DNA of 56,834 nucleotides from Bacteroidota bacterium (GTDB taxonomy: Bacteria > Bacteroidota > Bacteroidia > J057 > JAJTIE01), in NCBI GenBank assembly GCA_021300195.1, contig JAJTIE010000035.1:1-56834 (forward strand). Reading direction: 5' to 3'. Below the pieces are notes generated by a model. It saw nothing but the letters and a program-made list of their open reading frames with translations. It was not told where the DNA came from and did no database searches. A program made the translations under genes and the position numbers. Position 1 is the stretch's first letter, and the number at the start of each line of letters is the position of its first letter. Positions 4,877 through 49,163 of this stretch are shown here, piece by piece.

Positions 4877-5354
4877 GTCGTTAAGTTTATCGGAAATAAC
4901 GGAAAAAATCCGGGTCGTGCTGCCGTCTGCCGTCCGTACTGTGCAGGCAGAAGGGCTACAGCCATGGATAGAAGTATCTGATCATGAGATACATAAACTC
5001 ATGTCATTTCTTAGAAATGATCCAGATTTTTACCTGGACTTTCTTGCCAGCCTGTGCGGGGTGGATGACGGTGAGCAGCTATGGGTGGTCTATCATCTCT
5101 ACTCCATCCCGTATGGGTATTCGCTTGTGCTGAAGGTGGCCCTGGCAAGGGATAATCCGGTGGTGGACAGCATTTCGGACATTTATGCAGCGGCCAACTG
5201 GCACGAGCGCGAAACGTATGACCTATTCGGCATTACGTTTGCCAATCACCCCGACCTGCGCCGGATCTTGCTGCCCGAAGACTGGGCGGGGCACCCCATG
5301 CGAAAAGACTACCAGGAGGCCGACAGCTATCATGATATAGACGTTGCCTATTAG
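4875..5354 (+). CDS. nuoC: NADH-quinone oxidoreductase subunit C
   Basis: NuoC is a 30-kDa-type subunit of the peripheral arm of respiratory complex I, near the quinone-side iron-sulfur chain. The 159-residue frame carries the family signature: W109-HERETYDLFGITF, then HPDLRRILLPEDW and GHPMRKDY near residues 125-146. Unlike the usual nuoABCDEFGHIJKLMN operon, it stands alone here: upstream is a divergent aminotransferase with overlapping start codon, downstream a convergent phosphatase gene ending 5 bases away. A weak -7-like TAATTTCG lies at 4864-4871 inside the neighbour's coding region, without a well-spaced TTG. Another complex I gene, nuoH, lies about 48 kb away in the window, also alone. 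Confidence 0.95.
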   Translation: MSLSLSEITEKIRVVLPSAVRTVQAEGLQPWIEVSDHEIHKLMSFLRNDPDFYLDFLASLCGVDDGEQLWVVYHLYSIPYGYSLVLKVALARDNPVVDSISDIYAAANWHERETYDLFGITFANHPDLRRILLPEDWAGHPMRKDYQEADSYHDIDVAY

Positions 5355-5359
5355 CGGGC

Positions 5360-5860
5360 CTACTCGGCGGCATGCTTGCGCGGATAGTCTACCAGCAGTA
5401 CCCGGCCCGTGCCAGTCTCTGCATACTGCCAGTCCGCCACATCAAACTGTAGTACCACCATGCCACAGGTAGGCAGGTTATCCAGCTGTAGCGTGCCCGC
5501 CAGCAGGTTGGCCAGGCGGGTTAGGCCCGGGTTGTGCCCAAACAAGGCGATCGTATCGTGCTGTGCCGGCAGGCCCAGTACCAACTGCTGGAGCACACCG
5601 GTGGTGGCTTCGTAGATCGCAGCCTCTTGCCAGATAGCATCCAGCGGATAGCCCAGTTCGGAACAGATGAACCGCGCTGTGTGCAGGGCTCGTCGTGCCG
5701 GGCTACTTATTACCAGGTCAAACTTCACCCCGCGATCCCGCAACAGCTTACCCATGAAGGGGGCATTTCGGAGGCCGCGTGCATTGAGCGGGCGCTCAAA
5801 ATCCGCCAAACCCTGGTCCCAGTCTGACTTGGCATGGCGGATGATGTAAAGCGTTTTCAT
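5360..5860 (-). CDS. SixA-like phosphohistidine phosphatase (histidine phosphatase superfamily)
   Basis: The 166-residue protein has the SixA form of the histidine phosphatase active site: RHAKSDW (phospho-accepting H9), FERPLNARG, SSPARRALHTA, and the second histidine H109 in GHNPG. In E. coli SixA removes phosphate from histidines of phosphotransfer proteins. In Bacteroidota these proteins are widespread and their substrates mostly unknown. It is convergent with nuoC with only five bases between stops, so transcription probably meets. No clear promoter was seen upstream. A 237-base region separates it from the next gene, which runs away from it. Confidence 0.9.
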   Translation of the reverse strand: MKTLYIIRHAKSDWDQGLADFERPLNARGLRNAPFMGKLLRDRGVKFDLVISSPARRALHTARFICSELGYPLDAIWQEAAIYEATTGVLQQLVLGLPAQHDTIALFGHNPGLTRLANLLAGTLQLDNLPTCGMVVLQFDVADWQYAETGTGRVLLVDYPRKHAAE

Positions 5861-6006
5861 ACAAAAATATGGCCGAAGATATCGAAAAAACAGACATACC
5901 CAAACAGCTCACCAGCATATATAGCCTAGGTGATGCTAGTATTGGATAAGAGATAGTGTGCGCGCCAAACATGAAAATGCTACACAAAAAATATCCACTA
6001 TCCGTG

Positions 6007-6036
6007 TTGCGCAATAGGCATATATCTCTAATTTTG
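6007..6036 (+). promoter_or_regulatory. Bacteroidota-type promoter for the first OmpA/TPR gene
   Basis: TTG (6007-6009), a 19-base spacer, then TAATTTTG (6029-6036) is a full match to the Bacteroidota consensus. Transcription should start near 6043, giving a leader of about 55 bases before the ATG at 6098. Confidence 0.7.
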
Positions 6037-6097
6037 GGCACTGGAGGCAATACTGCCTTACATAAAGCACACTTCATATTATCCTAAATTCTCTATC

Positions 6098-8056
6098 ATG
6101 CTTTTACGCCTATCTAAGCTTGCTACGGCGGCACTCATGGCCCTGCTGGCCGTAACTGCCTGTACGCCCGAAGGGGTGATTAACAAAACCAACTATGAGG
6201 GTCGTAAGGTAACCAACACCTGCGATCAGTTCACCGCCGAGGTAACGGCCATTATTGATGCTAACGCGGGAGCATCGGTGCTTCGTGTGGCCGAGTATGA
6301 TAACAGCAGCTACAACACCATGTTTCTGGAGCCTGGCCAGTTTGAGCAGGTGGGAAACACCCTGTACTTCCGCCTTGTGAATGACCTGCAGTACGAGAAA
6401 TACCTGCACAAGCGCGTGGCCATACTGGTAAAGGTGAACTACAAGGCACAGGAACACCTGAGTGCCATAGAGAGTAGCCCGGAAGGCACACTGGGTACCC
6501 TTACCATCGATCGTGCTTACTATGATGCCAACAAAGAGCCCTTCTTTGTGTACAAGGTGGAAACCAATGGCAAAATAGATGGCAAGCAGCTGAGCCTCAG
6601 CTTCTCAGTAGTAAAACTGAACAAGAAAGGCGCCATCAAGAAGGTATACTGCAACTCGGTAGAGATGCCCCTTGGCCCAATAGACCCCGGATGCTGCACA
6701 GACCGCCCATGGGTGGGTGCCAACACGCAGAGTGTGGTAGATGTACCGAACCTGAACATCCGGAACGAACAGTACCGCTACCAGGGCTTCACCGGCACGC
6801 TGGATCTCATTTTCCCCATGAGCTCTACCGTCTTCAAAAAAGACAGCCTGAACAACGCCATCATCAACTATGCTGCCAAGTATGAAGACATGGGCTTCAA
6901 ACTGAAGGCAATTAACATAGACGGATACTGCTCTCAGGGTGGTACCGTAGAGCTGAACCAAGGCCTGAGCAACGCACGCGCTGAGGCCGTGTACAACGAT
7001 CTGGTACGCCACTATGAGCGCGCTGGGCGCCTAAATGAGCTAAAACTGACCTATGCAGGAAAAGGCGAGGACTGGAACCGCTTTGAGCAACTGGTAAAAA
7101 CCGTGAACTTTGAGCCCGCCGTACGTAGCCGCCTGCTCGCAATTGCCAACGGACCCGAAGGCATGGATGAGAAGGAAAGAATCCTGCGCGACGAAAAACT
7201 GCTGGAGGTGCGCCCCAGCAAGTCCAAGCTGGTAACGGATGTGCTGGAGTACTGCCGCCACACCTTTGTAACCTTCCAGTTTGAGTACGTGAAGGACCGT
7301 ATGTTCGTAGAGTACTATCCCAGCCAGATACCGGTTATCAGCCCCGCGCTGTTCGATGTAGCCCGCCAGGAGTTCGTAATCACTGAGTACAAACGTAATG
7401 TAGATGCGAACAAGGGCCTGGGCGTACTGAACACCCTGATAGATGTAAACAACAACCGTACGGCCAACCTGTTTGCCATGCGTAGCACCTACCACTTTGC
7501 ACTAACCAATGTGAAGAGTGCCATTAACGACATAGAAAGTGCTATGAACCTGAACCGGGACAACAGCAACTATGCACTGGCAGCCCTGAGCTACAAAACC
7601 AAGTATGCGGACATCTACACCGTAAGCGAGCGCATGCGCCTGCTGAATGACTACACCACCTACATTGCCAAATATCCGGACAATGCAGCCCTGACCCTGA
7701 ACCGGGCCGTAATGATGGACAAAGTGGGGTATCTGAGCGGTGCACTGGCCGAGTATGAGAAGCTGGGCAACAATAGCGCAGCACTGATGAATAACCGTGG
7801 CGTGGCCCGCCTGAAGGCGAGCCGTGTAACCGAGGCTGAGGCCGACTTCACAGCCGCCCTGGCAAAGGATGCAAACCTGGCCGAAGCACACTTCAACCTG
7901 GCGATTGTATATGCATGGAAAGGGCACACAGATAAGTCGATCACCCACCTGAACCATGCCGTGGAAGCAAACCCGGAAATGAAGAAGCTGGCACGTAACA
8001 ACGATGCGTTCAAAACGCTACGTGCCAACCCCGCATTCAAGCGGTTTATGAACTAG
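6098..8056 (+). CDS. OmpA-like/TPR envelope lipoprotein, paralog of the gene at 12790
   Basis: The 652-residue protein has a lipoprotein signal (hydrophobic core, lipobox AVTAC with C22), so it is predicted to be membrane-anchored. Residues about 220-310 form an OmpA-C-like peptidoglycan-binding region (IFPMSSTVFKKDS, INIDGYCSQGG, NQGLSNARAEAVYNDL). A GKGEDWNRFEQLV motif follows, then a region shared with the paralog. The last 200 residues are TPR-like helices (ALTLNRAVMM, ALMNNRGVARLKA, AEAHFNLAIVYAWKG). A CC pair sits near residue 200 (DPGCCTD), also seen in the paralog (APCCITT). The gene has a strong promoter and a strong terminator, so it is probably monocistronic and well expressed. It likely links outer membrane and peptidoglycan; no specific function is known to me. 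Confidence 0.88.
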   Translation: MLLRLSKLATAALMALLAVTACTPEGVINKTNYEGRKVTNTCDQFTAEVTAIIDANAGASVLRVAEYDNSSYNTMFLEPGQFEQVGNTLYFRLVNDLQYEKYLHKRVAILVKVNYKAQEHLSAIESSPEGTLGTLTIDRAYYDANKEPFFVYKVETNGKIDGKQLSLSFSVVKLNKKGAIKKVYCNSVEMPLGPIDPGCCTDRPWVGANTQSVVDVPNLNIRNEQYRYQGFTGTLDLIFPMSSTVFKKDSLNNAIINYAAKYEDMGFKLKAINIDGYCSQGGTVELNQGLSNARAEAVYNDLVRHYERAGRLNELKLTYAGKGEDWNRFEQLVKTVNFEPAVRSRLLAIANGPEGMDEKERILRDEKLLEVRPSKSKLVTDVLEYCRHTFVTFQFEYVKDRMFVEYYPSQIPVISPALFDVARQEFVITEYKRNVDANKGLGVLNTLIDVNNNRTANLFAMRSTYHFALTNVKSAINDIESAMNLNRDNSNYALAALSYKTKYADIYTVSERMRLLNDYTTYIAKYPDNAALTLNRAVMMDKVGYLSGALAEYEKLGNNSAALMNNRGVARLKASRVTEAEADFTAALAKDANLAEAHFNLAIVYAWKGHTDKSITHLNHAVEANPEMKKLARNNDAFKTLRANPAFKRFMN

Positions 8057-8080
8057 TGTCACCCACTTACCTAACTGAAA

Positions 8081-8108
8081 TGCCCGGCACTTGCCGGGCA
8101 TTTTTTTT
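8081..8108 (+). terminator. Rho-independent terminator after the first OmpA/TPR gene
   Basis: Perfect 8-bp stem TGCCCGGC/GCCGGGCA (8081-8088, 8093-8100), loop ACTT, then eight T (8101-8108). It lies 25 bases past the stop at 8056. Confidence 0.92.
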
Positions 8109-8117
8109 GATTTTTTC

Positions 8118-8148
8118 TTGTGCATGTGGGCTCCAACCACTATAATTG
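8118..8148 (+). promoter_or_regulatory. Promoter of tRNA-Asn
   Basis: TTG (8118-8120), 20 bases, then TATAATTG (8141-8148), one mismatch from TAnnTTTG. The expected start near 8154 lies a few bases before the mature tRNA 5' end at 8159. Confidence 0.55.
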
Positions 8149-8158
8149 CACTCTCTTT

Positions 8159-8232
8159 TCCCCCATAGCTCAGTTGGTTAGAGCGAATGACTGTTAATCA
8201 TTAGGTCCCTGGTTCGAGCCCAGGTGGGGGAG
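8159..8232 (+). tRNA. tRNA-Asn (anticodon GTT)
   Basis: A full cloverleaf can be drawn. The acceptor stem is TCCCCCA/TGGGGGA (8159-8165 with 8225-8231), with discriminator G8232. The D-arm contains AGCTCAGTTGGTTAGAGC. The anticodon stem is AATGA/TCATT with loop CTGTTAA and anticodon GTT at 8193-8195. The T-arm contains GGTTCGAGCCC. A terminal CCA is not encoded. A promoter precedes it and a terminator follows, so it is an independent unit. Confidence 0.97.
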
Positions 8233-8260
8233 CCCCATTCAGTAGAAAAAGCAACGTTCA

Positions 8261-8283
8261 AAGCCCGGTCATCCGGGCTTTTT
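8261..8283 (+). terminator. Rho-independent terminator after tRNA-Asn
   Basis: Perfect 8-bp stem AAGCCCGG/CCGGGCTT (8261-8268, 8273-8280), loop TCAT, then a run of T to 8283. Confidence 0.88.
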
Positions 8284-8312
8284 GCTTGGGGGAAGACTTG
8301 GGGGGGGGGAGA

Positions 8313-8345
8313 AAAGATCCCGGTTGGCCAAACCGACCAACCGGG
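8313..8345 (-). terminator. Possible terminator hairpin for the leftward hldA transcript
   Basis: A 9-bp perfect stem CCCGGTTGG/CCAACCGGG (8319-8327, 8337-8345) is followed on the minus strand by ATCTTTTC, a modest U-rich tail, and then a run of ten C. The surrounding 8284-8504 holds no gene; it contains a G10 run (8300-8309) and a C9 run (8466-8474). Confidence 0.45.
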
Positions 8346-8504
8346 GAAGTGCTTTCACACAGATCCGTAGTGCTGCCTGTCCGGGCAAGGGGCTACATGG
8401 GCAGAGCCGGCGGTACAGCCGAGTAAGCACGGCTAGATTGAATGGGCAAAAGAAGCCAGCCGCCGCCCCCCCCCGATCGCTACCGGCATCAGCCCGGTGC
8501 GAAA

Positions 8505-9485
8505 CTAGGCCAGGATAGCCTGGGCTTCCTGGCGCAAACGCAGTGGGTCGATAGGCGCTACACCGGGGATCTCGCACACCAGGCCACCAGCCAGGTTTGC
8601 CAGTGCGGCAGCCTGCTCTGCTGGCAACCCGGCGGCTAGGGCTGCTGCCATTACGGAAATGACGGTATCGCCAGCACCACTCACGTCGCGTATTTTGCGC
8701 ACATGGGCAGGGAAATGCACATGATGCCCGGCAGCGTCTACCAATAGCACCCCCTGCTCACTCAGGGTAACAAAGGTGTAACGGTGCGGCATGCGCTGCT
8801 GTAGCAGGGCGCAGGCCGATACGATGGCGGGAATATCCTCGCGCGAAAGCGTAAGGGCCAGGGCCTCATTCAGCTCCTTCAGGTTGGGCTTGAAGATGGT
8901 GCTGCCCCCATAGGCCAGAAAATTGGTGTACTTGGGGTCTACCAGCACCGGTATATCGTGTAGCACAGCCTGCTGCACCACATGCCGGATAAGCCCTGGC
9001 GTAAGCAGGCCCTTATTGTAGTCTTCCAGAATAATGGCTGCGGGGAGTAGCGCCATCTGGCTGTCCAGCAGCCCGCGCATCTGCGCCTCCTCCTCGGCAG
9101 TCAGTGGCTGCTTGTTCTCACGGTCTACGCGCAGCATCTGCTGGTTATCGCCCAGCACGCGGGTTTTGCTGGTGGTGGGGCGGTGGGGCAGGGATAGTAG
9201 CCCCCCTGTCTGCAGGCCATAGGTATTCATCAGTTCCAAGAACTGACTGCGCTCTACCGGCTCGGTGCCAATAATGCCACACAGGATGGGGTCCGCACCC
9301 AGGCTTAGCAGATTATAGGCCACATTGGCCGCACCACCCAGGCGGTACTCTTCCTTCTGCACGTCCACCACAGGCACTGGGGCCTCGGGCGAAATGCGCT
9401 CTACCCTACCCCACAGGTATTTATCCAGCATCAGGTCTCCCAGCACCAGGATGCGCTTTGCCCGTATATCGTCAAAAAACTGCAC
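8505..9485 (-). CDS. hldA: D-glycero-beta-D-manno-heptose-7-phosphate kinase (PfkB/ribokinase family)
   Basis: The 326-residue protein matches the kinase domain of HldE/RfaE, which phosphorylates heptose 7-phosphate at O-1 on the way to ADP-heptose for lipopolysaccharide core. Visible motifs are GDLMLDKYLWG near residue 16, ISPEAPVPVV, LGGAANVAYNL (residues 49-60), and the ribokinase ATP/anion-hole motif SGAGDT (269-274) with catalytic D273. The cytidylyltransferase half of bifunctional HldE is absent, so this is the stand-alone kinase form. It lies 23 bases downstream of the aminotransferase gene and is probably cotranscribed. A weaker alternative is another PfkB sugar kinase, but the N-terminal pattern is specific. 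Confidence 0.9.
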   Translation of the reverse strand: MQFFDDIRAKRILVLGDLMLDKYLWGRVERISPEAPVPVVDVQKEEYRLGGAANVAYNLLSLGADPILCGIIGTEPVERSQFLELMNTYGLQTGGLLSLPHRPTTSKTRVLGDNQQMLRVDRENKQPLTAEEEAQMRGLLDSQMALLPAAIILEDYNKGLLTPGLIRHVVQQAVLHDIPVLVDPKYTNFLAYGGSTIFKPNLKELNEALALTLSREDIPAIVSACALLQQRMPHRYTFVTLSEQGVLLVDAAGHHVHFPAHVRKIRDVSGAGDTVISVMAAALAAGLPAEQAAALANLAGGLVCEIPGVAPIDPLRLRQEAQAILA

Positions 9486-9508
9486 GATAGGTTGTGTGGG
9501 TTGTGTAC

Positions 9509-10720
9509 TTAGCTCAGTGCATACAGGGCCCGCCGGATGCGGGCTATGCCCTCCTCGATGGTAGCCAGATCGGTGGCATAGCTTAGGCGGATATGGCGAT
9601 CGGTACCAAAATCAATGCCACTCACGCAGCCCACCCGGCCATCATTCAGCAGGTACAGGGCGAGCTGATCCGTGTCGCCGATGTGCTGGCCACCGGGGGT
9701 TTTCTTGTGCAGGAAGGCAGATACATCCATGTAGAAGTAAAAGGCCCCCTCTGGTACAGGCACAATCAGCTCTGGGATCTGGGCCAGCAGTTGCAGGCCA
9801 TGGTCTCGCCGCTGGCGGTAGGCATCGCGCATACGGTAGGTTTCGTCCAGTGGCTGGGTAACCGCAGCCAATGCTGCCATCTGGGCCACGCCGCTCACGG
9901 CGCTGGTTATCTGGCCCTGTAGCTTGCTCATTGCCTGGATCATCCAGTCGGGCCCGGCCAGGAAACCAACGCGATAGCCCGTCATGGCAAAGGCTTTGCT
10001 CACCCCATTTATGGTGCAGGTGCGATCAAACAGGCCCTCTACCCGGGCTATGCTAAAGGGTGTTTTTCCGTAGGAAATAAGCGAATAGATCTCGTCGCTG
10101 ATAATACACACCTGCGGATGCCGGAGCAGTACCTCGGCCAATGCACGGGTTTCAGCCTCCGTGTATACCATACCGCTGGGATTGCTAGGGCTGTTGAACA
10201 GAAAGAGGCGGGTACGGGGGGTAATGGCTGCCTCTAGCTGCTGGGGCGTTATCTTGTACTGCTGCTCGGTGCCAGCCTGGATAAAAACCGGCACGGCCTC
10301 AGCCATTTCGGCCATAGGCCGGTAGCTTACCCAATAGGGAGCGGGGATAATAACCTCATCTCCAGGATTTAGCAGGGCAGTGAAGGCGTGGTACAGGCAC
10401 TGCTTGGCCCCGTTGCTTATTATCACCTGGCCAGCCTGATAGGGCAGGCCATGCTGCTGCTGAAAATACTGGGCTACACCCGCCCGCACCTCCGGATATC
10501 CATTCAGCGGGGGGTAGTGGCTATAGTTGTCTCGCACGGCCTGTATGGCCGCTTCCTTTATGTGCTCGGGGGTGTTGAAGTCCGGCTCACCCAGGGTAAG
10601 GCTCACCACATCCACCCCCTGCTCTTTCAGCTGGCGGGCCTTGGCAGCCATGGCCAGGGTGGCACTCTCGCTCACGGCGGCCAGTTTTGCGTTCCCGCGT
10701 ACCATTGTTTTCTCCATCAT
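9509..10720 (-). CDS. PLP-dependent class I aminotransferase (aspartate aminotransferase-like, AspB type)
   Basis: The 403-residue protein is a full-length fold-type I aminotransferase that would exchange an amino group between aspartate (or a related amino acid) and 2-oxoglutarate. Motifs are LGEPDFNTP near residue 43, YPPLNGYPEVR, the PYWVSY substrate region, NSPSNPSG (176-183), SDEIYSLISYG, and PLP lysine K242 in NGVSKAFAMTGYRVGF. C-terminal IRLSYA contains the carboxylate-binding arginine. It begins at tandem Met codons at 10720/10717. Its stop is 23 bases before hldA, suggesting an operon of unrelated functions. Substrate preference cannot be read from sequence alone. Confidence 0.92.
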   Translation of the reverse strand: MMEKTMVRGNAKLAAVSESATLAMAAKARQLKEQGVDVVSLTLGEPDFNTPEHIKEAAIQAVRDNYSHYPPLNGYPEVRAGVAQYFQQQHGLPYQAGQVIISNGAKQCLYHAFTALLNPGDEVIIPAPYWVSYRPMAEMAEAVPVFIQAGTEQQYKITPQQLEAAITPRTRLFLFNSPSNPSGMVYTEAETRALAEVLLRHPQVCIISDEIYSLISYGKTPFSIARVEGLFDRTCTINGVSKAFAMTGYRVGFLAGPDWMIQAMSKLQGQITSAVSGVAQMAALAAVTQPLDETYRMRDAYRQRRDHGLQLLAQIPELIVPVPEGAFYFYMDVSAFLHKKTPGGQHIGDTDQLALYLLNDGRVGCVSGIDFGTDRHIRLSYATDLATIEEGIARIRRALYALS

Positions 10721-10799
10721 CTAACCGTTTTCTCTGTATACTTTATGCTATCTACCCTGCGTAGTTTCTACTGCCCGGCAGGCAAGGCAAAGCCCCCGG

Positions 10800-11486
10800 T
10801 TATCTCTCCAGTTGCTGGCCTATCTCCATCAGGGTAAGGTTCTTGTTTTTGGCAGCAAAGGTTTCTTTTGCTGCGGCATGATCTATTTTGATGTAGCCAA
10901 AGGTATCGTAGTGCATGCCGATGATGTCCTGGCACTGGATAAATTCGGCTGCCTGGAGGGCATCCACAGCATCCATGGTAAAGTTGCCCCCTATGGGTAG
11001 CAGGGCCATATCCAGCCGGGTACGGCGGGGGATCAGCTGCATGTTCTGGCTCAGGGCTGTATCGCCCGCAAAGTACAGGTTCTTTCCCTCGGCCAGCTCC
11101 AGCACATAGCCCATGGGGTTTCCCCCGGGTGTGCCATCGGCAAAAGTACTGCTATGTACCGCCTCCACACAGCGCACGGTGCCGAAGGGGAACTGCCATG
11201 CACCGCCCGTATTCATCGGGTGCGTAGCGGCAATCCCTTTATGCTGGCACCAGCTGTGCACCTCGTAGGCACACACTACGGTGGCACCTGTACGCTGGGC
11301 GATAGGGAGCAGGTCTGCCACATGGTCTTCGTGCGCGTGGCTGATCAGAATATAATCGGCAGGCACCGTGCCCGCATCCGCTTTCCCTTTTGCCAGCGCA
11401 TTGTGGGTAATGAAGGGGTCGAACAGCAAATGTGTCCCTTGGGTTTCTATCCCAAAACAGGAATGGCCATAGTACGTTATCCTCAT
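10800..11486 (-). CDS. UPF0173 family metal-dependent hydrolase (metallo-beta-lactamase fold)
   Basis: The 228-residue protein starts at the ATG at 11486 (MRITYYGHSCF), the standard start of the family; the longer open frame upstream lacks homology-like sequence. The metal site is seen as SHAHEDH (residues 49-55), an H in VEAVHSS, D in YFAGDTAL and a late H in GMHYDTF. Members are small single-domain hydrolases of the YycJ/UlaG-like fold whose physiological substrate is generally unknown. It sits on the minus strand between ftsE (168 bases upstream) and the aminotransferase gene (79 bases downstream), so it may belong to the same leftward transcript. Confidence 0.9.
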   Translation of the reverse strand: MRITYYGHSCFGIETQGTHLLFDPFITHNALAKGKADAGTVPADYILISHAHEDHVADLLPIAQRTGATVVCAYEVHSWCQHKGIAATHPMNTGGAWQFPFGTVRCVEAVHSSTFADGTPGGNPMGYVLELAEGKNLYFAGDTALSQNMQLIPRRTRLDMALLPIGGNFTMDAVDALQAAEFIQCQDIIGMHYDTFGYIKIDHAAAKETFAAKNKNLTLMEIGQQLER

Positions 11487-11654
11487 AGCATGGGGCGTGT
11501 TGCACTGGCAAGATACAGGCACCCGAGCTAGCAAACAAGGGGATGGAAGCAGCCATTGTCCTTTTCGAGCATTTAACTGGGCGTACGCAGACGCCGTGGG
11601 TAAGAAATAGGCAGGCAACAGCTATAGCCCCCCGGGTGGCCCAAGCTGGTTACC

Positions 11655-12407
11655 TCACTCTACCGAAACCTTCTCTACTACCTGCCCGTCTACACAGGCC
11701 AGCACACGGGCGGGATATTCTCGGATCAGGCCATGCTCGTGGGTAGCCATCAGGATGGCAGTGCCCATTGTGTTGATCTTTTTCAGGATCTGCATGATGT
11801 GGGCGGTTACCTCGGGGTCCAGGTTTCCGGTAGGCTCGTCGGCAATAAGCAGCAGGGGGTCGTTCACCAGGGCGCGGGCTAGCACCACGCGCTGCTGCTC
11901 GCCGCCACTCAGCTGGTGGGGCATGTGCTTCATTTTGGCACTCAGGCCCACGAGCATGAGTACATCGTGTATACGATTGCGGATGAGCGAGCTATCTCGC
12001 CAACCGGTGGCCCGCATGGCAAACTCTATGTTGTCTGACACACTCCGGTCTGGCAGCAGCTGGAAGTCCTGAAACACAATGCCTAACTTGCGGCGCAACA
12101 AGGGTATATCCTTGCTTCGCAGTTTATTGGAAACCATGCCTGCCACCTCTACGGTACCTGCGGTAGGCAGCATATCGGCATAGATCAGCCTGAGCAGGCT
12201 GCTCTTGCCCGAGCCCGTGCGGCCAATCAGGTAGACAAATTCGCCCTTTTTTAGCTCAAAGTTTACCCCCGACAGCACCTGCCGCTGGTCGTAGGCGGCA
12301 GATACTTCGGTAAACCGGATAATGGCATCCTGGTCTGAAGTAGCAGCAGGGGTAGTACCCTGTGGCATAGGGGCATTCGTGCTCGGATCGGTAGAGGAGA
12401 TGCTCAT
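11655..12407 (-). CDS. ftsE: Cell division ABC transporter ATP-binding protein FtsE
   Basis: FtsE is the cytoplasmic ATPase that, with membrane partner FtsX, controls peptidoglycan hydrolysis at the septum. The 250-residue protein has Walker A GRTGSGKS (62-69), a Q-loop in [12 protein letters not shown], signature LSGGEQQR (166-173), Walker [15 protein letters not shown] (185-198) and H-loop ATHEH. The PDRSVSDN segment is typical of FtsE. The first 27 residues are a Ser/Thr/Pro-rich extension not usual in the family, so an internal start cannot be excluded. ftsX is not adjacent, as in many Bacteroidota. A conserved-looking small gene lies 19 bases upstream and is probably cotranscribed. Confidence 0.92.
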
Positions 12408-12426
12408 GATAGGGCTGTGGAGTGTG

Positions 12427-12648
12427 CTAGAATTCTATTTTTGTAATCTTGCCAAAGGGCAGTGTCTCAGCCATTTCTTCAATCTTGTGAAAAACATCCT
12501 GCTGGGGATCCGCATTGGCTCTGGATGTCCTCTGCGAACGATTGGGGCGGAAATAGCCGATCAGGGTAAAATCGGCATCTCTCACCTGGATATAGTCCGG
12601 GATTTTGGCCTTACCCTGCACTTTCAGGACGTAGTAGATTTTTTTCAT
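12427..12648 (-). CDS. Small protein upstream of ftsE, function unknown
   Basis: A 73-residue frame from ATG 12648 (MKKIYYVLKVQGKAK) to the stop at 12427. It has no signal peptide or membrane segment. It is basic in the middle (FRPNRSQRTSR) and ends in a regular beta-alpha-beta-like pattern (VFHKIEEMAETLPFGKITKIEF). I chose this start over an upstream one because the preceding residues look like untranslated leader. It is 19 bases from ftsE on the same strand, so it likely shares its transcript. I do not recognise the family; the coding pattern and tight spacing support it as real. Confidence 0.7.
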   Translation of the reverse strand: MKKIYYVLKVQGKAKIPDYIQVRDADFTLIGYFRPNRSQRTSRANADPQQDVFHKIEEMAETLPFGKITKIEF

Positions 12649-40198: not shown

Positions 40199-43100
40199 CT
40201 ACTGATCCAGCACAATTACACGCTCCGTGTACACCCTACGGGCCGTAACTACTTGAACGTGGTAACTACCGGCAGCCAGTCTGCCCACGGGTAGGCTGTG
40301 CAGGCTCTGGCCTGCACTGGCCGCCACGGTTTTGGTGAACAGTACCTTTCCTAATACATCCCTTACCACGATCTCTACCGGCTCATCTGCTTCCAGCTGT
40401 AGCACCAGGCTGATCTGTTGGCCATTCAGTGCGGGGTTGGGGAATACGCGCACACGTTCGTCTGCTGGGGCACCGCCACTGCGGATCAGCAGCACCGTAT
40501 TGCTATGGGTTACCCGGCCATCCAGGTCTTGCTGCTGCACGCTGTAGTAGTAGTGCGGAGTGGTCATAGAGGCCACCTCCATATCCAGATGTTGGTAGGC
40601 CACGGGCTGGCTGGTGGTACCTACGGCAGAGCGCCAAGCCACATCGGTCCAGGTGATGCCATCCAGGCTGCGCCGCAGGGTATAGCCATAGGCATTGGTC
40701 TCGCTATCTCCCGTCCAGTATAGTTGGGCATCTCTTCCATCCCACTTGCCTGCCAGCACCAGGTTTTCCACGGGCAGTACAGTCTGAAAGTCGGGCATGA
40801 AGGTGAAATCGCTAAAGGCATCATTTCCGATTGAGCCAAGGTTATTACTCACATCATGAGACACACCCAGGCTTTGCGGAGATAGTCGCCAGTTATTTGG
40901 CTGGGTATAGGCCGTACTGTAGGCACCGGCTACCTTAACCATATCCAGTTCTTCACTCAGATCTGCAGGCACAAAAGGCAGGTCTACATTATGGTAATTA
41001 AAGGTACCAACATAGCCCCCAGCAAAGTTAACGGTTCCGCGCTCCAGGGTCCAGAATCGGTTGATAGCAGTGGCCAGTGTGGGATGCCTGTGCTCGCGCA
41101 CACGGCCCAGCAGGGTTCCAGAGCCGGTAACGCTCGCAAAACTGATCTCACACGGGCTGTATTCATCGCCACCTAGCGGGAAGCTGTGGGCTACATCCGT
41201 GCCCGTAGCATACTCCCACACACAGTAACCATTTTCCGTGGCCACTAGGTAGCCTGTTTGCTGGCCTGCACCCGTAACCGTAGCTGCACTTGCCAGGGTA
41301 ATGTTCTGGTTACCCAACACCACTTTGGCACCCGTAAAGCGGATGTCCGTATTTACGCGGGTGTTCGCTCCGCCCAGTGCCTTATTGCTCAGCACAGAGG
41401 CCGACGGGCTGCTTACTTGTAGCCTGCCATACTTGCCTGCCCACATAGTTTGGGCATTTCCATTGTAGTGCACCAGGCTGTTGTCATCATTATTCAGCTT
41501 TGCCGCGTTCATTACCGCAAACTCGCCGGTAATGACCAAGGTACCCAGGTTATAGATATCCGTGTTGCTGATGAGCTGGGCCGCATCGGGCGGAAGGGTA
41601 GTGCTCACTACACTATTGGGATCTGCAGAGCCATGGGGCATGCGCAGGATAACACCACTGGCCACCGTAAGCCGTGCACCAGTCCGAACCAGCACCTGAT
41701 CCACGCCATTAGGAATGGTGAAATTGTAGTTCACATTGTGACGTATGTGCACATAGCGGCTCAGCGCGGTGGGATACTGCACCTGCAGGCAGCTGTTGTT
41801 CACAAAGCTGGCCGAAACCCAGGTGGAAGTAGCAACATCCCACACCTCCCAGATGCTTACATCGGTCCAGCTTCCATCGGCAATAGTGCGGTAGTCCAGC
41901 GGGGGTATATTGCAGCTACCCACGCTTATTGGGCCTACTGTAGTCTGCCCACTGCTGGTCTGGCTGTACATATCGGCAGAGGTACCGCTGCCCAGGGCAG
42001 GCTTCAGGTTTTCAACTCGCGCCCAGCCCGTACCGCTGTTGAACACACCATTGGCCGAAGAGGCGCGGTCAAATCCGGCATTTTCATCTGCTGCAACCCA
42101 GTAGGTCGTAATCGCCAGGTTGCTACCCCCTGGAACGCTTTCACTCAGGTGCCAGGTGCGGTTAACCGAAGTGGCTGCGGTCAGCTCGTCCTGGGCGAAA
42201 ATCAGGTCATTTGCAAAATTGGGCTCTACACGCAGGCTGTAGTTGTCTACAGTGCCATCATTGTCTACCAGCAGCGGGTTATAACTGGCGGTACTGCTGC
42301 CTACGGGGTAGAAGAATGGCGTACTTCCAACCGCATCTTTGACCACCGAACCAAACTGATTGGTGACAAAGTAACCGGCTGAAGGGCCGAAGCCAGACAG
42401 AGTGGCGGTGCTCCGTAGCGCTATGTTTCTATTGCCCAATACAATGAAGGCATTGCTGAATTGCACGCCAGTCCGCACCTCGGTATTGGCACCCCCTACC
42501 GCTTTGCTACCGCTGCCAGTTACCTCTAGCCTGCCATATGAGCCGTTCCACATGGTCTGATTTCCGGCCAGTGTATAGGCTACGGTACTGTTATCACTGT
42601 TCTGTAGCAGGCCAGATCCCGTTGTGGTAAAGGTGCCGGCTATCTCCAGGCGGCCCTCATTTACCAGGTCATAGGTACCCTTATCTACCACTCCCAGGTT
42701 GCTACCCACCGGTATGCGTAGCAGCCCTGCGGCCGATATGGTGGTTTGGTCAATGCCAAAGGGATTGTTGGTTGTGTTAAAGGCACCAGCCGTATTGTAC
42801 AGCAGATTGTACACAACGGTGTGCTGTACCAATACGGAGTCGCTCTGCGCAGTGGGATAGGGTATTGTACCACAGGCAAATACGAGGTTCTCAGCTGGCA
42901 CCCACACCCCTGTTGTCGGATTTTTTACTTCCCAGGTAGTAAGGGCATTCCAGTTTCCATTATCCCTGGAACGATAGTCCAGGCTAGTTATATCTTCCTC
43001 ATTTACCCGTATAGGCTGTATGCTGCTCTGGCAGGCTGCATTTGTGGCACGCACGCCATACACACCCGTGCCCACCGTGTAGCTGCTGGCAGTGCCCAGT

Positions 43101-45418
43101 GTGGTGGTAACGGCAAGCGTGGTAGGATTCAGGGTAAACCACTCATAACCAGCGCCGGCAGATACCGTTGCCGTGATGGTGGCAGAGCCGCCTGGGCATA
43201 CCAGCTGGTCGCTTCCGGGCGTAACGACGGGCAGCGGCAGGATGCTGACAACAACCTGGTCGGTGGAGGTAGCGCAGGCGCCCGGCAGAGATGGGTCGGT
43301 GACCGTGAGGGTATAGGTAGTGGTGGTGGTGACCGTGGCGATGGGCTGGGCTACATTGGTAGCGCTGAGGCCCGTAGCAGGCACCCAGCTGTAGGTATAG
43401 CCTGCCATAGCCGGAGATCCCAGTGTGGTGGGTGTGGGGGTAGGGCTTTCGCAAAAAGTTCGATCTGCACCTGCAGCAGCCACAGGGCCGCTCAGCACCA
43501 CCACGGTAAAGGTGTTCTCTACTTGCTCTGCGCATCCACCCGGGTGCGTGAAGTTGATACGCCCCAGATACTGTGTAGTGGTAGCCGGAGTTACCGTAAT
43601 AGTAGGGGTTGTGGCGCCGGTAGACCACCAATAACTGACAGAGGTAGCACCGGCAGCTGGTGCCACAGTGATGTCTAGCGTAACGGGTGTGCCTGCACAC
43701 AAACTCTGCTGCGGCGAGGATTCATTGGCCAAAGCAATGGCATAGTTCCACGAAGCAGCTCCGTCATAGGGCCCACCCTGGTAGAACAACGGCTCCACAC
43801 AGGGGTTGAGCACGTCCGCCGTAGCCCCATCATAGGGCCCACCCTGGTAGAACAGCGGCTCCACACAGGGGTTGAATACGTCCACCGTAGCCCCATCATA
43901 AGGCCCACCCTGGTAGAACAGCGGCTCCACGCAGGGGTTGAGCACGTCCGAAGTGACTCCATCATAAGGCCCACCCTGGAAAACAGGCTCCAAGCCTGCC
44001 AAAAAGCATGAATCGAGTGTCTCGGTACAATTCCCGTTTATCAAGGTCAGGCTAACCAGGTTTTCGCCATCATTAACAAAAATTATGTTCGCCGGATTTT
44101 CATCCGTTGAGGTTCCACCACTGGCAAAATCCCAATACCAGGCAAGCGCATTAGTTGAGTTTGAGGAAAAGTTGTATGGAGTATCGGCTATCACCTGCTC
44201 GCAGCCATTCTCTACACCCCCCGTAGCCGGAGAGGTAACACTGATAGAACCGGTGGGCTTCAGGTCAATGTCATAAGGAATGGAGAGGGTAGCCACCAGG
44301 TTTGGCATGAAAGCCGTGTTTCGCACGGTAAGGCGAATGGTATAGGTACCTTCGGCCGTGTAGGTGAACGAAGGTTCGAAATCTGAAGAGGTGGAAGCAG
44401 CAGGATCACCAAACTCCCATTCATACTCAATATCGGAGCCTTGGGTAGAGAAGTTTGAAAATTGAACTGGCTCATTTACGCAGCCCCCGGCAATGGTAAA
44501 GTTTACAATGGGCAACAAGGGATTGAGCGGATTGCAATCCTGATCTGTAGTGGGGGCAGTTACAGCAAAAAGATTGACAGTACCGACAGCAGCAGCAGGA
44601 ACCACCACCTGCACATAGTAATCTCCAGTTTGCATGCAGTTCAGGGTAAACTCGGTAAGTGCGTCCGAGTTGCACGGGCCAGCACTGAGGGCCGTGCAGG
44701 TGCCATACAGCACGCGGTAGCGGATATTTGAGGGAAGGGCATTGGTATTTTCCTCCAGGCGGAAGCGCAAATCCACCTTCTCTGTTGCGGCTACAGCCAC
44801 CTTAAACCAGGCAGACTTATAGTTGGTAGGGCCGAAAAGACAGCCCATATTACTGCCATCCTCGCCAAAACCCTCGCCTATGGTGTGGCAGTCAATATTG
44901 ACCGATCCGGATGCTGAGGTAAGCAGGCCGGGCACATGGGTAAGCTGAATATTAACCGCCTCAGACTCCGGGTCCGTAGAAGTACACAAGTCGCCACGCT
45001 GAGGGATGAGCCATACACGGGGCCGTACCTGCTCGATGGTATAGCCACAGCCCGTAAGCAGCACATAGTACCGGCCAGGGCTTAGGCAGCCCTCGCTCCA
45101 GGGCTGGCTGTTCGCAAAAAGAGTGCTCGTCGTAACCCGGTCGCTGGCATCCAGGCTGGCACAGTCAGGGGCCTTGTACACCTGGATGTTATCGGCATCT
45201 GCATAAACCTGGTTGCCGGGGTTGATTTCGTAATTGATACGAAGCCTACCCGAAAACGTACTCTCGAATGTGTACCACAGGGTGCGGTTGCCACAGCCAT
45301 TTGGGTCGGTAGCACTTCGGGTGGCACAGGAGAAAGAAGCCCAATTACCCACCGTCACGCCAGATGGCAGCACGCCCATGTTGGCTGCATTTAGGTTCGG
45401 GTTGGCATCCCCCCCCAC
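40199..45418 (-). CDS. Giant surface protein, fragment 4: PKD domains, repeats, T9SS sorting domain
   Basis: A 1,739-codon frame whose start is a GTG inside the G8 run; the true N-terminal side is fragment 3. Early modules (NRTLWYTFESTFSGRLRINY, PGRYYVLLTGCGYTIEQV) match those upstream. A PKD domain follows (FSNFSTQGSDIEYEWEFGD, YTAEGTYTIRLTVRN), a second PKD-like part, four copies of a GGPYDG repeat, Ig-like domains (YWWSTGATTPTITVTPA, AGADRTFCESPTPTP), and two similar modules starting LDYRSRDNGNWNALTTWEV and LDYRTIADGSWTDVSIWEV. The end (VFPNPALNGQQISL, VRDVLGKVL, LAAGSYHVQVVTARR) is a type A sorting domain, which directs the protein through the T9SS to the surface. Confidence 0.88.
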   Translation of the reverse strand: MGGDANPNLNAANMGVLPSGVTVGNWASFSCATRSATDPNGCGNRTLWYTFESTFSGRLRINYEINPGNQVYADADNIQVYKAPDCASLDASDRVTTSTLFANSQPWSEGCLSPGRYYVLLTGCGYTIEQVRPRVWLIPQRGDLCTSTDPESEAVNIQLTHVPGLLTSASGSVNIDCHTIGEGFGEDGSNMGCLFGPTNYKSAWFKVAVAATEKVDLRFRLEENTNALPSNIRYRVLYGTCTALSAGPCNSDALTEFTLNCMQTGDYYVQVVVPAAAVGTVNLFAVTAPTTDQDCNPLNPLLPIVNFTIAGGCVNEPVQFSNFSTQGSDIEYEWEFGDPAASTSSDFEPSFTYTAEGTYTIRLTVRNTAFMPNLVATLSIPYDIDLKPTGSISVTSPATGGVENGCEQVIADTPYNFSSNSTNALAWYWDFASGGTSTDENPANIIFVNDGENLVSLTLINGNCTETLDSCFLAGLEPVFQGGPYDGVTSDVLNPCVEPLFYQGGPYDGATVDVFNPCVEPLFYQGGPYDGATADVLNPCVEPLFYQGGPYDGAASWNYAIALANESSPQQSLCAGTPVTLDITVAPAAGATSVSYWWSTGATTPTITVTPATTTQYLGRINFTHPGGCAEQVENTFTVVVLSGPVAAAGADRTFCESPTPTPTTLGSPAMAGYTYSWVPATGLSATNVAQPIATVTTTTTYTLTVTDPSLPGACATSTDQVVVSILPLPVVTPGSDQLVCPGGSATITATVSAGAGYEWFTLNPTTLAVTTTLGTASSYTVGTGVYGVRATNAACQSSIQPIRVNEEDITSLDYRSRDNGNWNALTTWEVKNPTTGVWVPAENLVFACGTIPYPTAQSDSVLVQHTVVYNLLYNTAGAFNTTNNPFGIDQTTISAAGLLRIPVGSNLGVVDKGTYDLVNEGRLEIAGTFTTTGSGLLQNSDNSTVAYTLAGNQTMWNGSYGRLEVTGSGSKAVGGANTEVRTGVQFSNAFIVLGNRNIALRSTATLSGFGPSAGYFVTNQFGSVVKDAVGSTPFFYPVGSSTASYNPLLVDNDGTVDNYSLRVEPNFANDLIFAQDELTAATSVNRTWHLSESVPGGSNLAITTYWVAADENAGFDRASSANGVFNSGTGWARVENLKPALGSGTSADMYSQTSSGQTTVGPISVGSCNIPPLDYRTIADGSWTDVSIWEVWDVATSTWVSASFVNNSCLQVQYPTALSRYVHIRHNVNYNFTIPNGVDQVLVRTGARLTVASGVILRMPHGSADPNSVVSTTLPPDAAQLISNTDIYNLGTLVITGEFAVMNAAKLNNDDNSLVHYNGNAQTMWAGKYGRLQVSSPSASVLSNKALGGANTRVNTDIRFTGAKVVLGNQNITLASAATVTGAGQQTGYLVATENGYCVWEYATGTDVAHSFPLGGDEYSPCEISFASVTGSGTLLGRVREHRHPTLATAINRFWTLERGTVNFAGGYVGTFNYHNVDLPFVPADLSEELDMVKVAGAYSTAYTQPNNWRLSPQSLGVSHDVSNNLGSIGNDAFSDFTFMPDFQTVLPVENLVLAGKWDGRDAQLYWTGDSETNAYGYTLRRSLDGITWTDVAWRSAVGTTSQPVAYQHLDMEVASMTTPHYYYSVQQQDLDGRVTHSNTVLLIRSGGAPADERVRVFPNPALNGQQISLVLQLEADEPVEIVVRDVLGKVLFTKTVAASAGQSLHSLPVGRLAAGSYHVQVVTARRVYTERVIVLDQ
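43761..43984 (-). repeat. 66-bp tandem repeat, about 3.4 copies, in the giant surface gene
   Basis: Units start near 43761, 43827 and 43893, with a partial copy from 43959. Each encodes a 22-residue unit with QGGPYDGAT and NPCVEPLFY. Copies differ by few bases (for example DVLNPC or DVFNPC), so the array is recent. Length change by whole codons would keep the frame. Confidence 0.92.
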
Positions 45419-45980
45419 AGAAGTCGTGCACTAAAGGTAGATTATCAAATCCCTCGTGCTGCACGCTTACGTCCACCTGTCCATTTACGTAGTTAAATAC
45501 GTTGTTGTCTACAATAACATAGTACCGAACCCTGCCTGTTTCGGTGCAGGGGTTGCGCTCAAAGGTAACGGAGTTTCGGTCCTCTGGGCACCAATTTGGT
45601 GCCGTCCGGCTGTTATCGATAAAGCGGAGGCCCTGTGCCACGGTGCTATCTATACCCCCACTGGCGCGCAGAGTAGCAAAATCGATGGTACCATCGGCAT
45701 CCGAGCGATATACACTAAAAGGAGCCTGCAGGGTCTTACCACTGGTTCGGTTTCGAACACGCACAGTAACTCGTCCAGGGCCGTCTACCACAAAGGTGTA
45801 CCACAGGGTGCGGCGGGTAAAGGGTTGTGTCTGGGCATCGTCCTGGTAGACAACGAAGTTGGCAGGCATGGGGTAGGGCACGCTAGTAGGCGTGGTATTC
45901 GGGTATCCGCCTATGGCGCATTTCTCGATGTCGGCCCCCCCCCTCGGCAGGAGAATCCCGTAGCTCACCTGGCTGAGCAC
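45345..45980 (-). CDS. Giant surface protein, fragment 3: beta module
   Basis: A 211-codon frame whose only start is a GTG at 45980. The genuine part begins after the G9 run with ADIEKCAIGGYPNTTPTS and runs through RRTLWYTFVVDGPGRVTV, GLRFIDNSRTAPNWCPED and VRYYVIVDNNVFNYVNGQVD to VHDFCGG. After the G8 run (45409-45416) it goes out of frame. The module matches those before and after it in fragments 2 and 4 (LWYTF..., YYV...), which shows all three belong to one protein. Confidence 0.7.
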   Translation of the reverse strand: MLSQVSYGILLPRGGADIEKCAIGGYPNTTPTSVPYPMPANFVVYQDDAQTQPFTRRTLWYTFVVDGPGRVTVRVRNRTSGKTLQAPFSVYRSDADGTIDFATLRASGGIDSTVAQGLRFIDNSRTAPNWCPEDRNSVTFERNPCTETGRVRYYVIVDNNVFNYVNGQVDVSVQHEGFDNLPLVHDFCGGGCQPEPKCSQHGRAAIWRDGG

Positions 45981-46698
45981 CCGTAGTGCAGTAGAAGATA
46001 TCGCTACTGGCCCGCCTACCCGGCACCGTGGGGTGCGCCTCTTCTACGGGATTGGCAGCAGTAGGGTCGTCTACTCGGCCGTAGTACTCCAGCCCATTAC
46101 GGGGCAATACACCAAAATCGTAGGCCGTAGAAGCATGGTCAAACCGGCTGGTAGCCACCTGATCTACATACACAATGGGCTGGACACTCTGGCCAATATG
46201 GCTATCATTCGCAAAAACAACAAAGGTGTAATCCCCTGGCTGGGCACGACAGAGTTCAATTCCATCATGGGTAGAATAGGTTGAGTGAAACCAGGTGTTT
46301 GACAGCTGAACGCAGGGCTGGATAGGTGCGGCATTCAGGATAGCGGGGTTGGTACGGGCATTTCCGGCATATACCTGCACGCGATAGGTGTGGAAGACAT
46401 TCCGGATATTGACGTAAGACTCCCTGTCGAGCGAGAAGGTGTAATAGGCCGTACGATTATAGCCTGAACATCCTGTTATGGGATGACCGCTAAATGGGAG
46501 GTCATTCGTACAGTTGAAGAATTCTGGCTGGCACAGGGTGTAGGCCCTGCCCGTAGCAGGTACGGGCTGTACCCCAGGGTCATTCCAAGACAATGGGGTT
46601 CCATTATTGGCTACACAGGCTGTGGCAGGCCGGTTGAATCCAGGGCTGTTGGTCAGCCCCGTGCCGATGCCGATAGTCAGATTAACGGCTTCGCCCAA
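45883..46698 (-). CDS. Giant surface protein, fragment 2: Cys-containing beta modules
   Basis: This frame is really open from about 47139 down to 45883, but it contains no ATG; its first usable initiation codon is the TTG at 46698, so it is unlikely to be translated on its own. It encodes modules like TDFWTCIDNPLTIAGRTPC, YNRTAYYTFSLDRESYVNI and GDYTFVVFANDSHIGQSV, each with paired Cys. It stops just after the G9 run (45935-45943); before that run the sequence is in frame (DIFYCTTGAQPGELRDSPAEG). With eight G the frame would pass into fragment 3. Confidence 0.7.
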   Translation of the reverse strand: MGEAVNLTIGIGTGLTNSPGFNRPATACVANNGTPLSWNDPGVQPVPATGRAYTLCQPEFFNCTNDLPFSGHPITGCSGYNRTAYYTFSLDRESYVNIRNVFHTYRVQVYAGNARTNPAILNAAPIQPCVQLSNTWFHSTYSTHDGIELCRAQPGDYTFVVFANDSHIGQSVQPIVYVDQVATSRFDHASTAYDFGVLPRNGLEYYGRVDDPTAANPVEEAHPTVPGRRASSDIFYCTTGAQPGELRDSPAEGGGRHREMRHRRIPEYHAY

Positions 46699-47069
46699 AT
46701 TTCCGCCCGCGCCACTTGAGTATGTAGGGCTGACAAAGGAGCCACCGCTACCGTACTGAACAACCGTATACCAGCCCGCTGTGGCGGGGAATGGCGCATA
46801 TACGTTGGTGCTCAGTTGTCCTCCACGGCAGCCCCATTCGCCAATTATGTTATCCGCATAAGGCGTCAGTGTGTTTGCACCGTTGCGGATGTCTCCGGCA
46901 AAAAGCCGGAAGTTATAATGACTACTTATTGTAAGAAAAGTGGAACCCGTAAGATAGAATACCCGGTAGATCTGCTTGGTAGCCCCGTCGCAGGGGGTGC
47001 GTCCGGCTATGGTGAGCGGGTTATCTATACAGGTCCAGAAATCCGTTTGTGCGTTTACAATTCCGGTTG

Positions 47070-49163
47070 TTATCGTTCCCAGGTTGTTTGGCGCAGCGGG
47101 ATTACCGAAAGTGGTGACGGGAGCCGTAAGCGTGAAGGGGTGGGTTGATCTCCTATCCCTACATCATTTGCATCGCCAAATGACACCAAGGTGTATGTGC
47201 CAGGCGTAACACATACCCGGATGGGAGTAAGCAGAGCCTGGCAACCCGCCTGATCCACCAGGCCTGTAATGCGCCCCCCCGACTGAGGGAGTGCGGAGGC
47301 ATCGCCCCGGTATAGCCGATAGGTAAAGCGCTGCCAGTTGCCACTACCAACGGTCAGAATACCGTTCTGATCAATCACTACACGGCGGTAAATGGCCTTT
47401 ACATTTGGGCCACACAAATCGCCGGCGGGCAGCACATTGTTGTTGCAACCAAAGCGATCGAAAGCGCCGGATATGGTTACATTCTCGGGCAGGGGGTCTC
47501 CGCCGTTCACGTTATCAATGGCAGCGGCCGTAGCCAGGTTGAAGGCACTGGTGGCCTGCACCTGCTGGCCAAGTATCGAGAGCTGGACAGCCCGCCCGAG
47601 GTGGTTGTAGCAGCTAAAGATATCGGACGAATCGCCCAGTACCTGCACCATGTAGAAGCCCGCTGTTAGGCAGGTAAAGGAGTTTGATCCGGAAAAGGTA
47701 CCACCCGCTACAGCCGTTACATCTAGCGGGCTGCAGCTGGCCATATAGCCGGTAGCGCTGTAATACAGGCGCACGCGTGGCGACCAGTCGGCAGGCCACC
47801 CTGGAACATCGTACAGGACCTGCGCATTCAGTCGTCCATCCCCCCATACGCCCGTATAGGGGTGGTTTCCGGCATAACGACTATCGGTAGCTATGTGTAT
47901 AACCAGCTCCCATACATTCCCGCTCATCTCCATGGCGCCATAGTAGGCGGCACCAGAGGTAGAACGCTTCTCGTTCGCATTTCGGGCAAAGAGGCCGCAG
48001 CCTACCGGTCCCTCGCCCAGGCTATTGCCTGCCGGATCGTACAAACGATGTTCGTTTAGTGAGGGAGTGGTACCGCGATAGTGGCAGTTTGCGTTTGCAT
48101 TCGAGGCATCGGCCAGCTCGGTTCCGTTTTCGGGCGTGGTGATGCGCAGCAACTGCGAAAGGGTGAATACATCCCGGCCCCAGGCAAATCCGCCCTCGGA
48201 AAAGGCCCCTACCCCCTTGCACACCTTTTCATACTCCAGCTCGGTCATGGGGCGCAGCGCCGCCCAGTCCAGATAAGAGAGCAGGTCGGCCTCGTCCATA
48301 TAGTTATTTGCCCGGTTCGGTTCGGTGGATACATAGCCCTGGGTGCCAATGGTAATGGTATTTCGGTAGGCCGTAAAAGCACTCGCAAAACGCAAGGCTG
48401 CCACATTACCCAGTGTATTCAGAAAATCTACGTACTGGCCGGCACTTACCTCATACTTCATGCAGTAGAAGGCATCAAAGCCCTTGGGATAATTGGCAAG
48501 AAGGGCCACTTGCCCACCGCTGATGGGCAGGTTCCGGGCAGCCTCTCCGTCAATCCAGGTCCTGTTAATGGATAGATTCAAACCGTCCCTCGCCCTATCC
48601 GCGCCCACAATCGTGCTCATATAGAAGCCCTTATAGGTAAGGGGTCCCGCCACATCTCCGGCCCAGTAGGCGGCCTGGGGCACCTGTACCATCTCGATGG
48701 CATATACGCGTATTTCGTAGTCTACAGTTTGCTCAAAGGTGGCGCCATCGGTGGCGCCTACTATAGCCAGGGTTACGGTCTCTCCGGTTATGTGGCCAAT
48801 CCCATCGGTGCTGCGGCGCACCATGGCACCGGTATTATGGTTGCCCGCATTGCCCAGCCGGTCGGTGGTGGTAATGTTTTGGGCAAACGCCAGGCCGGCA
48901 CTGAGGCTGTGGTCGGCCAGGGTGGTGCTCAGCAGGGCGTGGCTAAAGGTGAGGTCGGCAGCATCGCAGCGGCGGAACTTGACGAATACCCAGGCGGCAT
49001 CGTGGTTGCCGGGCGCGCCAGACACCATCCAGCTGTTTTGCCAGCTCAGCTGAAACTGCACCCGATTAGCACCCACACGCGTGATATTGGACACCACAAT
49101 AGAGTTGGCCAGTGCTTGATAGCCAGATGCAAGAGCAAGGAAGACAATAAAACATCGCTTCAT
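47070..49163 (-). CDS. Giant surface protein, fragment 1: signal peptide, beta domain, SUMF1-like domain
   Basis: A 697-residue frame from ATG 49163 (an upstream non-ATG start is unneeded) to a stop at 47070. The signal peptide is followed by a beta domain (RVQFQLSWQNSWMV, DAAWVFVKFRRC) typical of Bacteroidota surface proteins. A formylglycine-generating-enzyme-like domain then begins with MVQVPQAAYWAGD and contains FDAFYCMKYEVSAGQYVDFL, LRPMTELEYEKVCKG and GAMEMSGNVWELV. Domains of this fold occur in GldJ/GldK and in sulfatase-activating enzymes; catalytic activity here is not predicted, and a structural or binding role is more likely. The last ~24 residues (after GDQPTP) are out of frame: the next base-shifted frame continues FTLTAPVTTFGNP. 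The true protein goes on. Confidence 0.85.
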   Translation of the reverse strand: MKRCFIVFLALASGYQALANSIVVSNITRVGANRVQFQLSWQNSWMVSGAPGNHDAAWVFVKFRRCDAADLTFSHALLSTTLADHSLSAGLAFAQNITTTDRLGNAGNHNTGAMVRRSTDGIGHITGETVTLAIVGATDGATFEQTVDYEIRVYAIEMVQVPQAAYWAGDVAGPLTYKGFYMSTIVGADRARDGLNLSINRTWIDGEAARNLPISGGQVALLANYPKGFDAFYCMKYEVSAGQYVDFLNTLGNVAALRFASAFTAYRNTITIGTQGYVSTEPNRANNYMDEADLLSYLDWAALRPMTELEYEKVCKGVGAFSEGGFAWGRDVFTLSQLLRITTPENGTELADASNANANCHYRGTTPSLNEHRLYDPAGNSLGEGPVGCGLFARNANEKRSTSGAAYYGAMEMSGNVWELVIHIATDSRYAGNHPYTGVWGDGRLNAQVLYDVPGWPADWSPRVRLYYSATGYMASCSPLDVTAVAGGTFSGSNSFTCLTAGFYMVQVLGDSSDIFSCYNHLGRAVQLSILGQQVQATSAFNLATAAAIDNVNGGDPLPENVTISGAFDRFGCNNNVLPAGDLCGPNVKAIYRRVVIDQNGILTVGSGNWQRFTYRLYRGDASALPQSGGRITGLVDQAGCQALLTPIRVCVTPGTYTLVSFGDANDVGIGDQPTPSRLRLPSPLSVIPLRQTTWER

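Follow-up and report, generated by a model that had tools for sequence, protein, structure and literature searches.

A probably inactivated and partly deleted second copy of a two-gene cassette encoding a giant T9SS surface protein in a Bacteroidota genome

A giant gene for a surface protein exported by the type IX secretion system (T9SS) lies broken on the minus strand at positions 49163-40199 of the window, the 56,834-nucleotide stretch of DNA analysed here, where it forms four open fragments, each continuing the previous one, separated by three frame changes. We conclude that this locus is probably a second copy, recently inactivated and partly deleted, of a conserved two-gene cassette. The window is contig C35 of a source genome of 2.67 Mb in 71 contigs, and the source genome contains exactly two giant copies: the one in the window and an intact sister on contig C29. 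In the comparison set, the source genome stands alone for its genus, and one further genome represents its family.

Reading frames of the broken gene and its homologs

The first fragment, read on the minus strand, begins with the ATG at 49163 and ends at the stop at 47070; in the second, the homology starts at 47130 and the stop is at 45883; the third stops at 45345 and the fourth at 40199. A strong intrinsic terminator (minus strand, 40159-40140) lies directly 3' of the last stop, and none follows the stops of the other fragments. None of fragments 2-4 has its own signal peptide, and no match to the Bacteroidota -33/-7 promoter is present within the window.

The first piece of the giant gene (47144-47777) matches residues 419-631 of the sister protein, and is followed by frame change 1 at 47131-47143, a short C/A-rich stretch that contains no long run; reading continued across it ends at the stop codon at 47070-47072. 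Piece 2 (45945-47130, 395 codons, sister residues about 635-1026) leads to frame change 2, a run of nine G on the coding strand at 45935-45943 that has no counterpart in the sister or in other homologs. Piece 3 (45417-45935, 173 codons) leads to frame change 3, a run of eight G on the coding strand at 45409-45416, which is likewise not conserved. Piece 4 (40199-45406) comprises 1,735 codons and the stop, and contains a PKD domain, GGPYDG repeats, and a T9SS type A sorting domain. No other runs in the gene are as long as the G9 and G8 runs, which the original prediction had already singled out as break sites and which both lie out of frame.

The sister gene (C29:1878-10787) consists of 2,969 codons in one uninterrupted frame. 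A joined query, made of the four translations with an X at each break, aligns end to end with this frame, and the fragments are 70-77% identical to the sister when each is aligned alone. The three frame changes, and the predicted continuity of the four minus-strand fragments across them, are confirmed because the joined query and the single fragments match one and the same uninterrupted frame. Related genomes give the same picture: in a scan of named genomes, the region is in a single frame at 46 of 47 loci, with full genes of up to about 3,000 codons, and five relatives from the same order have a complete gene (2,322 to 2,827 codons from stop to stop) that is uninterrupted at all three places. 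Note that a first scan of named genomes, using the window piece alone as the query, gave no match.

The sole broken homolog among the 47 loci is L121 (KatS3mg026), where the small differences are mostly at positions other than those in the window. This locus (4969-12558) lies in four frames, and single G deletions distinguish its adjoining tandem repeats. We considered and rejected L121 as a recurrence at the same break sites, since its breaks are mostly elsewhere, its assembly is apparently a long-read one, and single-base differences exist even between its own repeats. From its name only, this assembly seems to belong to the set of PacBio HiFi genomes in PMC9671151.

Fusion with the gene upstream

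The four fragments had been predicted to form one gene of about 2,990 codons. This stands for fragments 2-4 and the last third of fragment 1, which together make up one giant T9SS gene, and fails for residues 1-459 of fragment 1, which correspond to a separate upstream gene; an in-frame fusion point at about 47778-47786 had been overlooked. The part of fragment 1 at 47787-49163 is the remnant of what we call gene 1, encoding an FGE/SUMF1-like secreted protein whose N terminus (at 49163) looks like a signal peptide when judged by eye, and is 75% identical to the product of the separate gene at C29:276-1823. On C29, this 515-codon gene is located directly upstream of the giant gene (gene 2).

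Compared with the C29 cassette, the fusion point (minus strand, 47778-47786) marks a loss of about 1.46 kb (roughly C29 1674-3131) that comprises the end of gene 1, the spacer, and the beginning of gene 2 with 418 of its codons. Residue 459 of the window protein corresponds to residue 466 of gene 1, residue 463 corresponds to residue 419 of the giant gene, and the reading frame continues across the junction, so that gene 1 and the giant gene are fused in frame. Since residues 1-459 belong to a separate upstream gene on C29 and about 1.46 kb is missing in between, two genes have been fused in the window. To judge from the sequences, then, residues 1-459 represent a different, upstream gene of about 500 codons and no native part of the giant gene.

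The gene order at about 20 related loci agrees with that on C29: one to three FGE/SUMF1-like genes are followed at a short distance by the giant gene, always in separate frames. The loci that contain this cassette are L014 276-10787 (the C29 locus), L020, L076-L081, L083, L107, L108, L110, L111, L116, L118, L119, L123, L125, and L129. Among C29 and these roughly 20 related loci, the fused arrangement is peculiar to the window. The deletion has removed the last ~50 residues of gene 1, a tail that contains an invariant RGG..GGRGxR in all relatives examined, together with the signal peptide and start of the giant gene. As this example shows, a deletion that fuses two genes can go unnoticed within a sequence that looks like one long gene.

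Origin of the lesions

The sister and 46 of the 47 loci, all intact, read straight through the places where the window copy has its lesions, and essential parts of the cassette are either lost (the tail of gene 1 and the start of gene 2) or, in the case of the sorting domain, beyond the reach of translation that stops at 47070. The window copy would thus have lost its function. In the scheme that we propose, the first gene of the parent cassette would have encoded a secreted FGE/SUMF1-like protein, and the second a giant surface protein of the PKD/GGPYDG type, exported by the T9SS. The deletion of ~1.46 kb would have taken away the 3' end of the first gene and the 5' end of the second and fused what was left, and the frame change at 47131-47143 would then have stopped translation at 47070; the order of these two events is inferred, and the reverse may hold. 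A point against this scheme is that reading continues across the fusion, which may have allowed the fused gene to function for a time. The two longest G runs may have slipped later, since selection would no longer have acted on the frame downstream. The remaining product would be at most a secreted stub of ~697 residues without a sorting domain, and the full proteins would come from the intact copy on C29.

Rates of change suggest that these events are recent. In NG86 comparisons with the sister, all pieces give dN of 0.18-0.22 with dS at or above 1 (saturated), a pattern that points to purifying selection having acted on all pieces until recently. At alignment columns that are fully conserved in the outgroups, 15 changes are unique to the window copy and 8 to the sister, a difference that is not significant, and no premature stop (nonsense mutation) is found in the window copy. 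Given the low dN and the non-significant excess of changes, the inactivation should therefore be recent. Note that the lack of a premature stop and of a clear acceleration of protein change in the window copy, the difference being not significant, is also a point against inactivation.

The last point bears on the first alternative, an intact fused gene in which only the fusion is real and the three frame changes arose during sequencing or assembly and do not exist in the cell. We consider this unlikely, although it accounts for the absence of visible added decay and for the fact that frame changes 2 and 3 fall in the gene's longest G runs; furthermore, the only broken homolog, L121, comes from an apparently PacBio HiFi assembly with single-base differences between its own repeat copies. 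However, frame change 1 lies outside any long run, and it would be odd for three errors to fall within 1.7 kb while the 57 kb around them is clean. Evidence on the type of reads comes from the contig ends: among the 64 ends examined, seven pairs overlap by exactly 141 bases. A constant overlap of 141 bases characterises contigs taken from a de Bruijn graph with k=141, normally the highest k used by MEGAHIT. The exact overlaps therefore indicate a short-read de Bruijn assembly, in which long-read homopolymer errors are unlikely, and misreading, one of three causes originally proposed, becomes less likely accordingly; low coverage is still a possible source of error. In general, exact overlaps of contig ends can help to separate real frame breaks from long-read errors without the reads themselves.

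A survey of other frame breaks in the source genome also argues against misreading. The survey uses sampled stretches and a simple home-made coding/frame model, and covers a 681 kb sample, where about 30 G or C runs of at least eight bases are located in coding stretches. The frame is broken only at the two in the giant gene; about 20 others are in frame. The model also called frame changes at many ordinary gene junctions, which we rejected as false, and each junction beside a G/C run of at least eight bases proved ordinary when checked by eye, apart from those reported here. The one other convincing frame break in the sample is at an A9 run at C1:6907, within an amine-oxidase/reductase-like gene (locus L022, G000:C1, 4980-7198). 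As a separate observation, contig C66 (L049, G000:C66) opens with fourteen C at positions 1-14, which may be an artefact of assembling the end of the contig. Three breaks and one deletion within one gene point to a cause in the gene rather than to random error; the lesions are probably present in the cell. Among the three causes first proposed, inactivation is thus the best fit, with an intact sister, a deletion, and three frame changes in its favour.

A second alternative retains the lesions and assigns a role to the broken copy: it would be kept as a silent donor, whose sequence is copied into the intact gene on C29 and so varies the surface protein. The two giant copies indeed share two blocks that are far more similar than their surroundings. 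Block 1 (minus strand, 41732-42031) is 96% identical to the C29 copy and includes exact runs of 107 and 90 bases, and block 2 (minus strand, 41282-41581) is 93-97% identical and includes exact runs of 100, 75, and 64 bases; the counterpart of both in C29 is 8936-9709, and the DNA identity of the two copies outside the blocks is 55-82%. These blocks are the product of gene conversion or recombination between the window copy and C29. If the silent donor reading were true, an environmental bacterium would be varying a giant T9SS surface protein by recombination, and the presence of exactly two giant copies would suit it. However, one or two exchange events are enough to produce the blocks, and ordinary gene conversion between duplicates leaves the same pattern; we regard this reading as very improbable.

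A third alternative is a phase-variable surface gene that is switched on and off by slippage in the G runs, the sampled population being in the off state. The gene encodes a surface protein, and its G8 and G9 runs are both out of frame. Nevertheless, frame change 1 is located upstream of both runs and outside any run, and translation from 49163 stops at 47070, ahead of the runs, whatever their length. Slippage in the G runs therefore cannot restore the protein, and a change in run length cannot switch between a full-length and a truncated product. Nor are the runs kept in related genes: they are missing in the sister, where the same glycine loop is coded by mixed codons, and 40 homologs lack them at the corresponding positions. 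G runs of the same length occur in frame within the window in two housekeeping genes, those for a class IV aminotransferase and QueG, and the frequency of G and C runs of at least eight bases in 532 sampled genes (32 seen, ~31 expected) is what codon content predicts. We give phase variation very little credence, and we likewise found nothing in favour of the more general suggestion that the gene is maintained out of frame for some purpose, since the runs are not conserved and equal runs elsewhere are in frame.

Finally, programmed ribosomal or transcriptional frameshifting that joins the four pieces into one protein has a negligible probability, since, despite the apparent constraint on all pieces, it would need three events in two directions, and we found no conserved frame change or slippery motif, the sister and 46 of the 47 homologs being read straight through in one frame.

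Parent cassette and known systems

The giant gene ends with a T9SS C-terminal sorting domain (Por_Secre_tail; minus strand, 40211-40447). In the window piece, the domain scores 42.1 against the curated NCBIfam model TIGR04183 (cut-off 23), and the sister scores 39.3, also above the cut-off. With PF18962, the score is near the cut-off of 27 bits: just over it in the genome search (31.4) and just under it on the isolated fragment (26). Tandem 66-base repeats with QGGPYDG units are located at 43757-43979 (minus strand), and the motif is also repeated in the sister and in relatives. By eye, a signal peptide is present at the start of the sister. Taken together, these sequence features identify the parent of gene 2 as a type A cargo of the T9SS that carries a PKD domain and QGGPYDG repeats. 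The window copy shares with such cargo (TIGR04183/PF18962) the signal-peptide-like start, the PKD domain, and the C-terminal sorting domain; however, the frame changes separate signal peptide and sorting domain, which are not on one frame, and the latter is unreachable from the start codon. By analogy, the role of the parent cassette is likely to be surface binding or adhesion.

The RGG..R tail of gene 1 in the relatives resembles, we presume, those of the FGE-fold proteins of the T9SS ring and of diversity-generating (DGR) systems. Gene 1 scores just below the Pfam cut-off for PF03781, and the first fragment in the window has no match among solved structures. Gene 1 is FGE-like, and as such comparable to the FGE/SUMF1-fold proteins (PF03781), which include the repurposed FGE fold of a T9SS ring protein (PMC12421860) and DGR variable proteins (PMC6328139). 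The reading of gene 1 as a DGR variable protein is not borne out: unlike such systems, the source genome contains no template repeat for the tail, in that no second copy of the C29 gene 1 tail is found in it, and several genomes with the cassette contain no reverse transcriptase. The only match to a reverse transcriptase in the source genome is at C1:18894, and none is found in G001, G004, or G019, all of which have the cassette. In a brief literature search, we found no published description of the FGE-like plus giant GGPYDG T9SS cassette, which occurs in many uncultured Bacteroidota. Cultured relatives with the giant gene include Limnovirga soli and Paracnuella aquatica.

Poly-G phase-variable surface genes are known, for example, in Campylobacter. 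The window copy shares with them the G runs of 8-9 bases inside a surface gene, but its runs are not conserved and the upstream break outside any run makes switching futile. A closer parallel for the inactivated copy that we favour is the frameshifted pseudogene of a duplicated gene, described as 'singletons' (PMC3711429). The shared features are breaks unique to one copy, full-length relatives, and lesions in mononucleotide runs; the window copy differs in having also a deletion that fuses it with its upstream neighbour, and in having as yet no nonsense mutation. As a probable inactivated duplicate, the window locus is ordinary in kind and involves no new mechanism. A third, truncated copy of gene 1, a further point in favour of this reading, is located on contig C24 (L174) at 9356-9898, where the homology stops after ~180 residues, 123 bases from the contig end.
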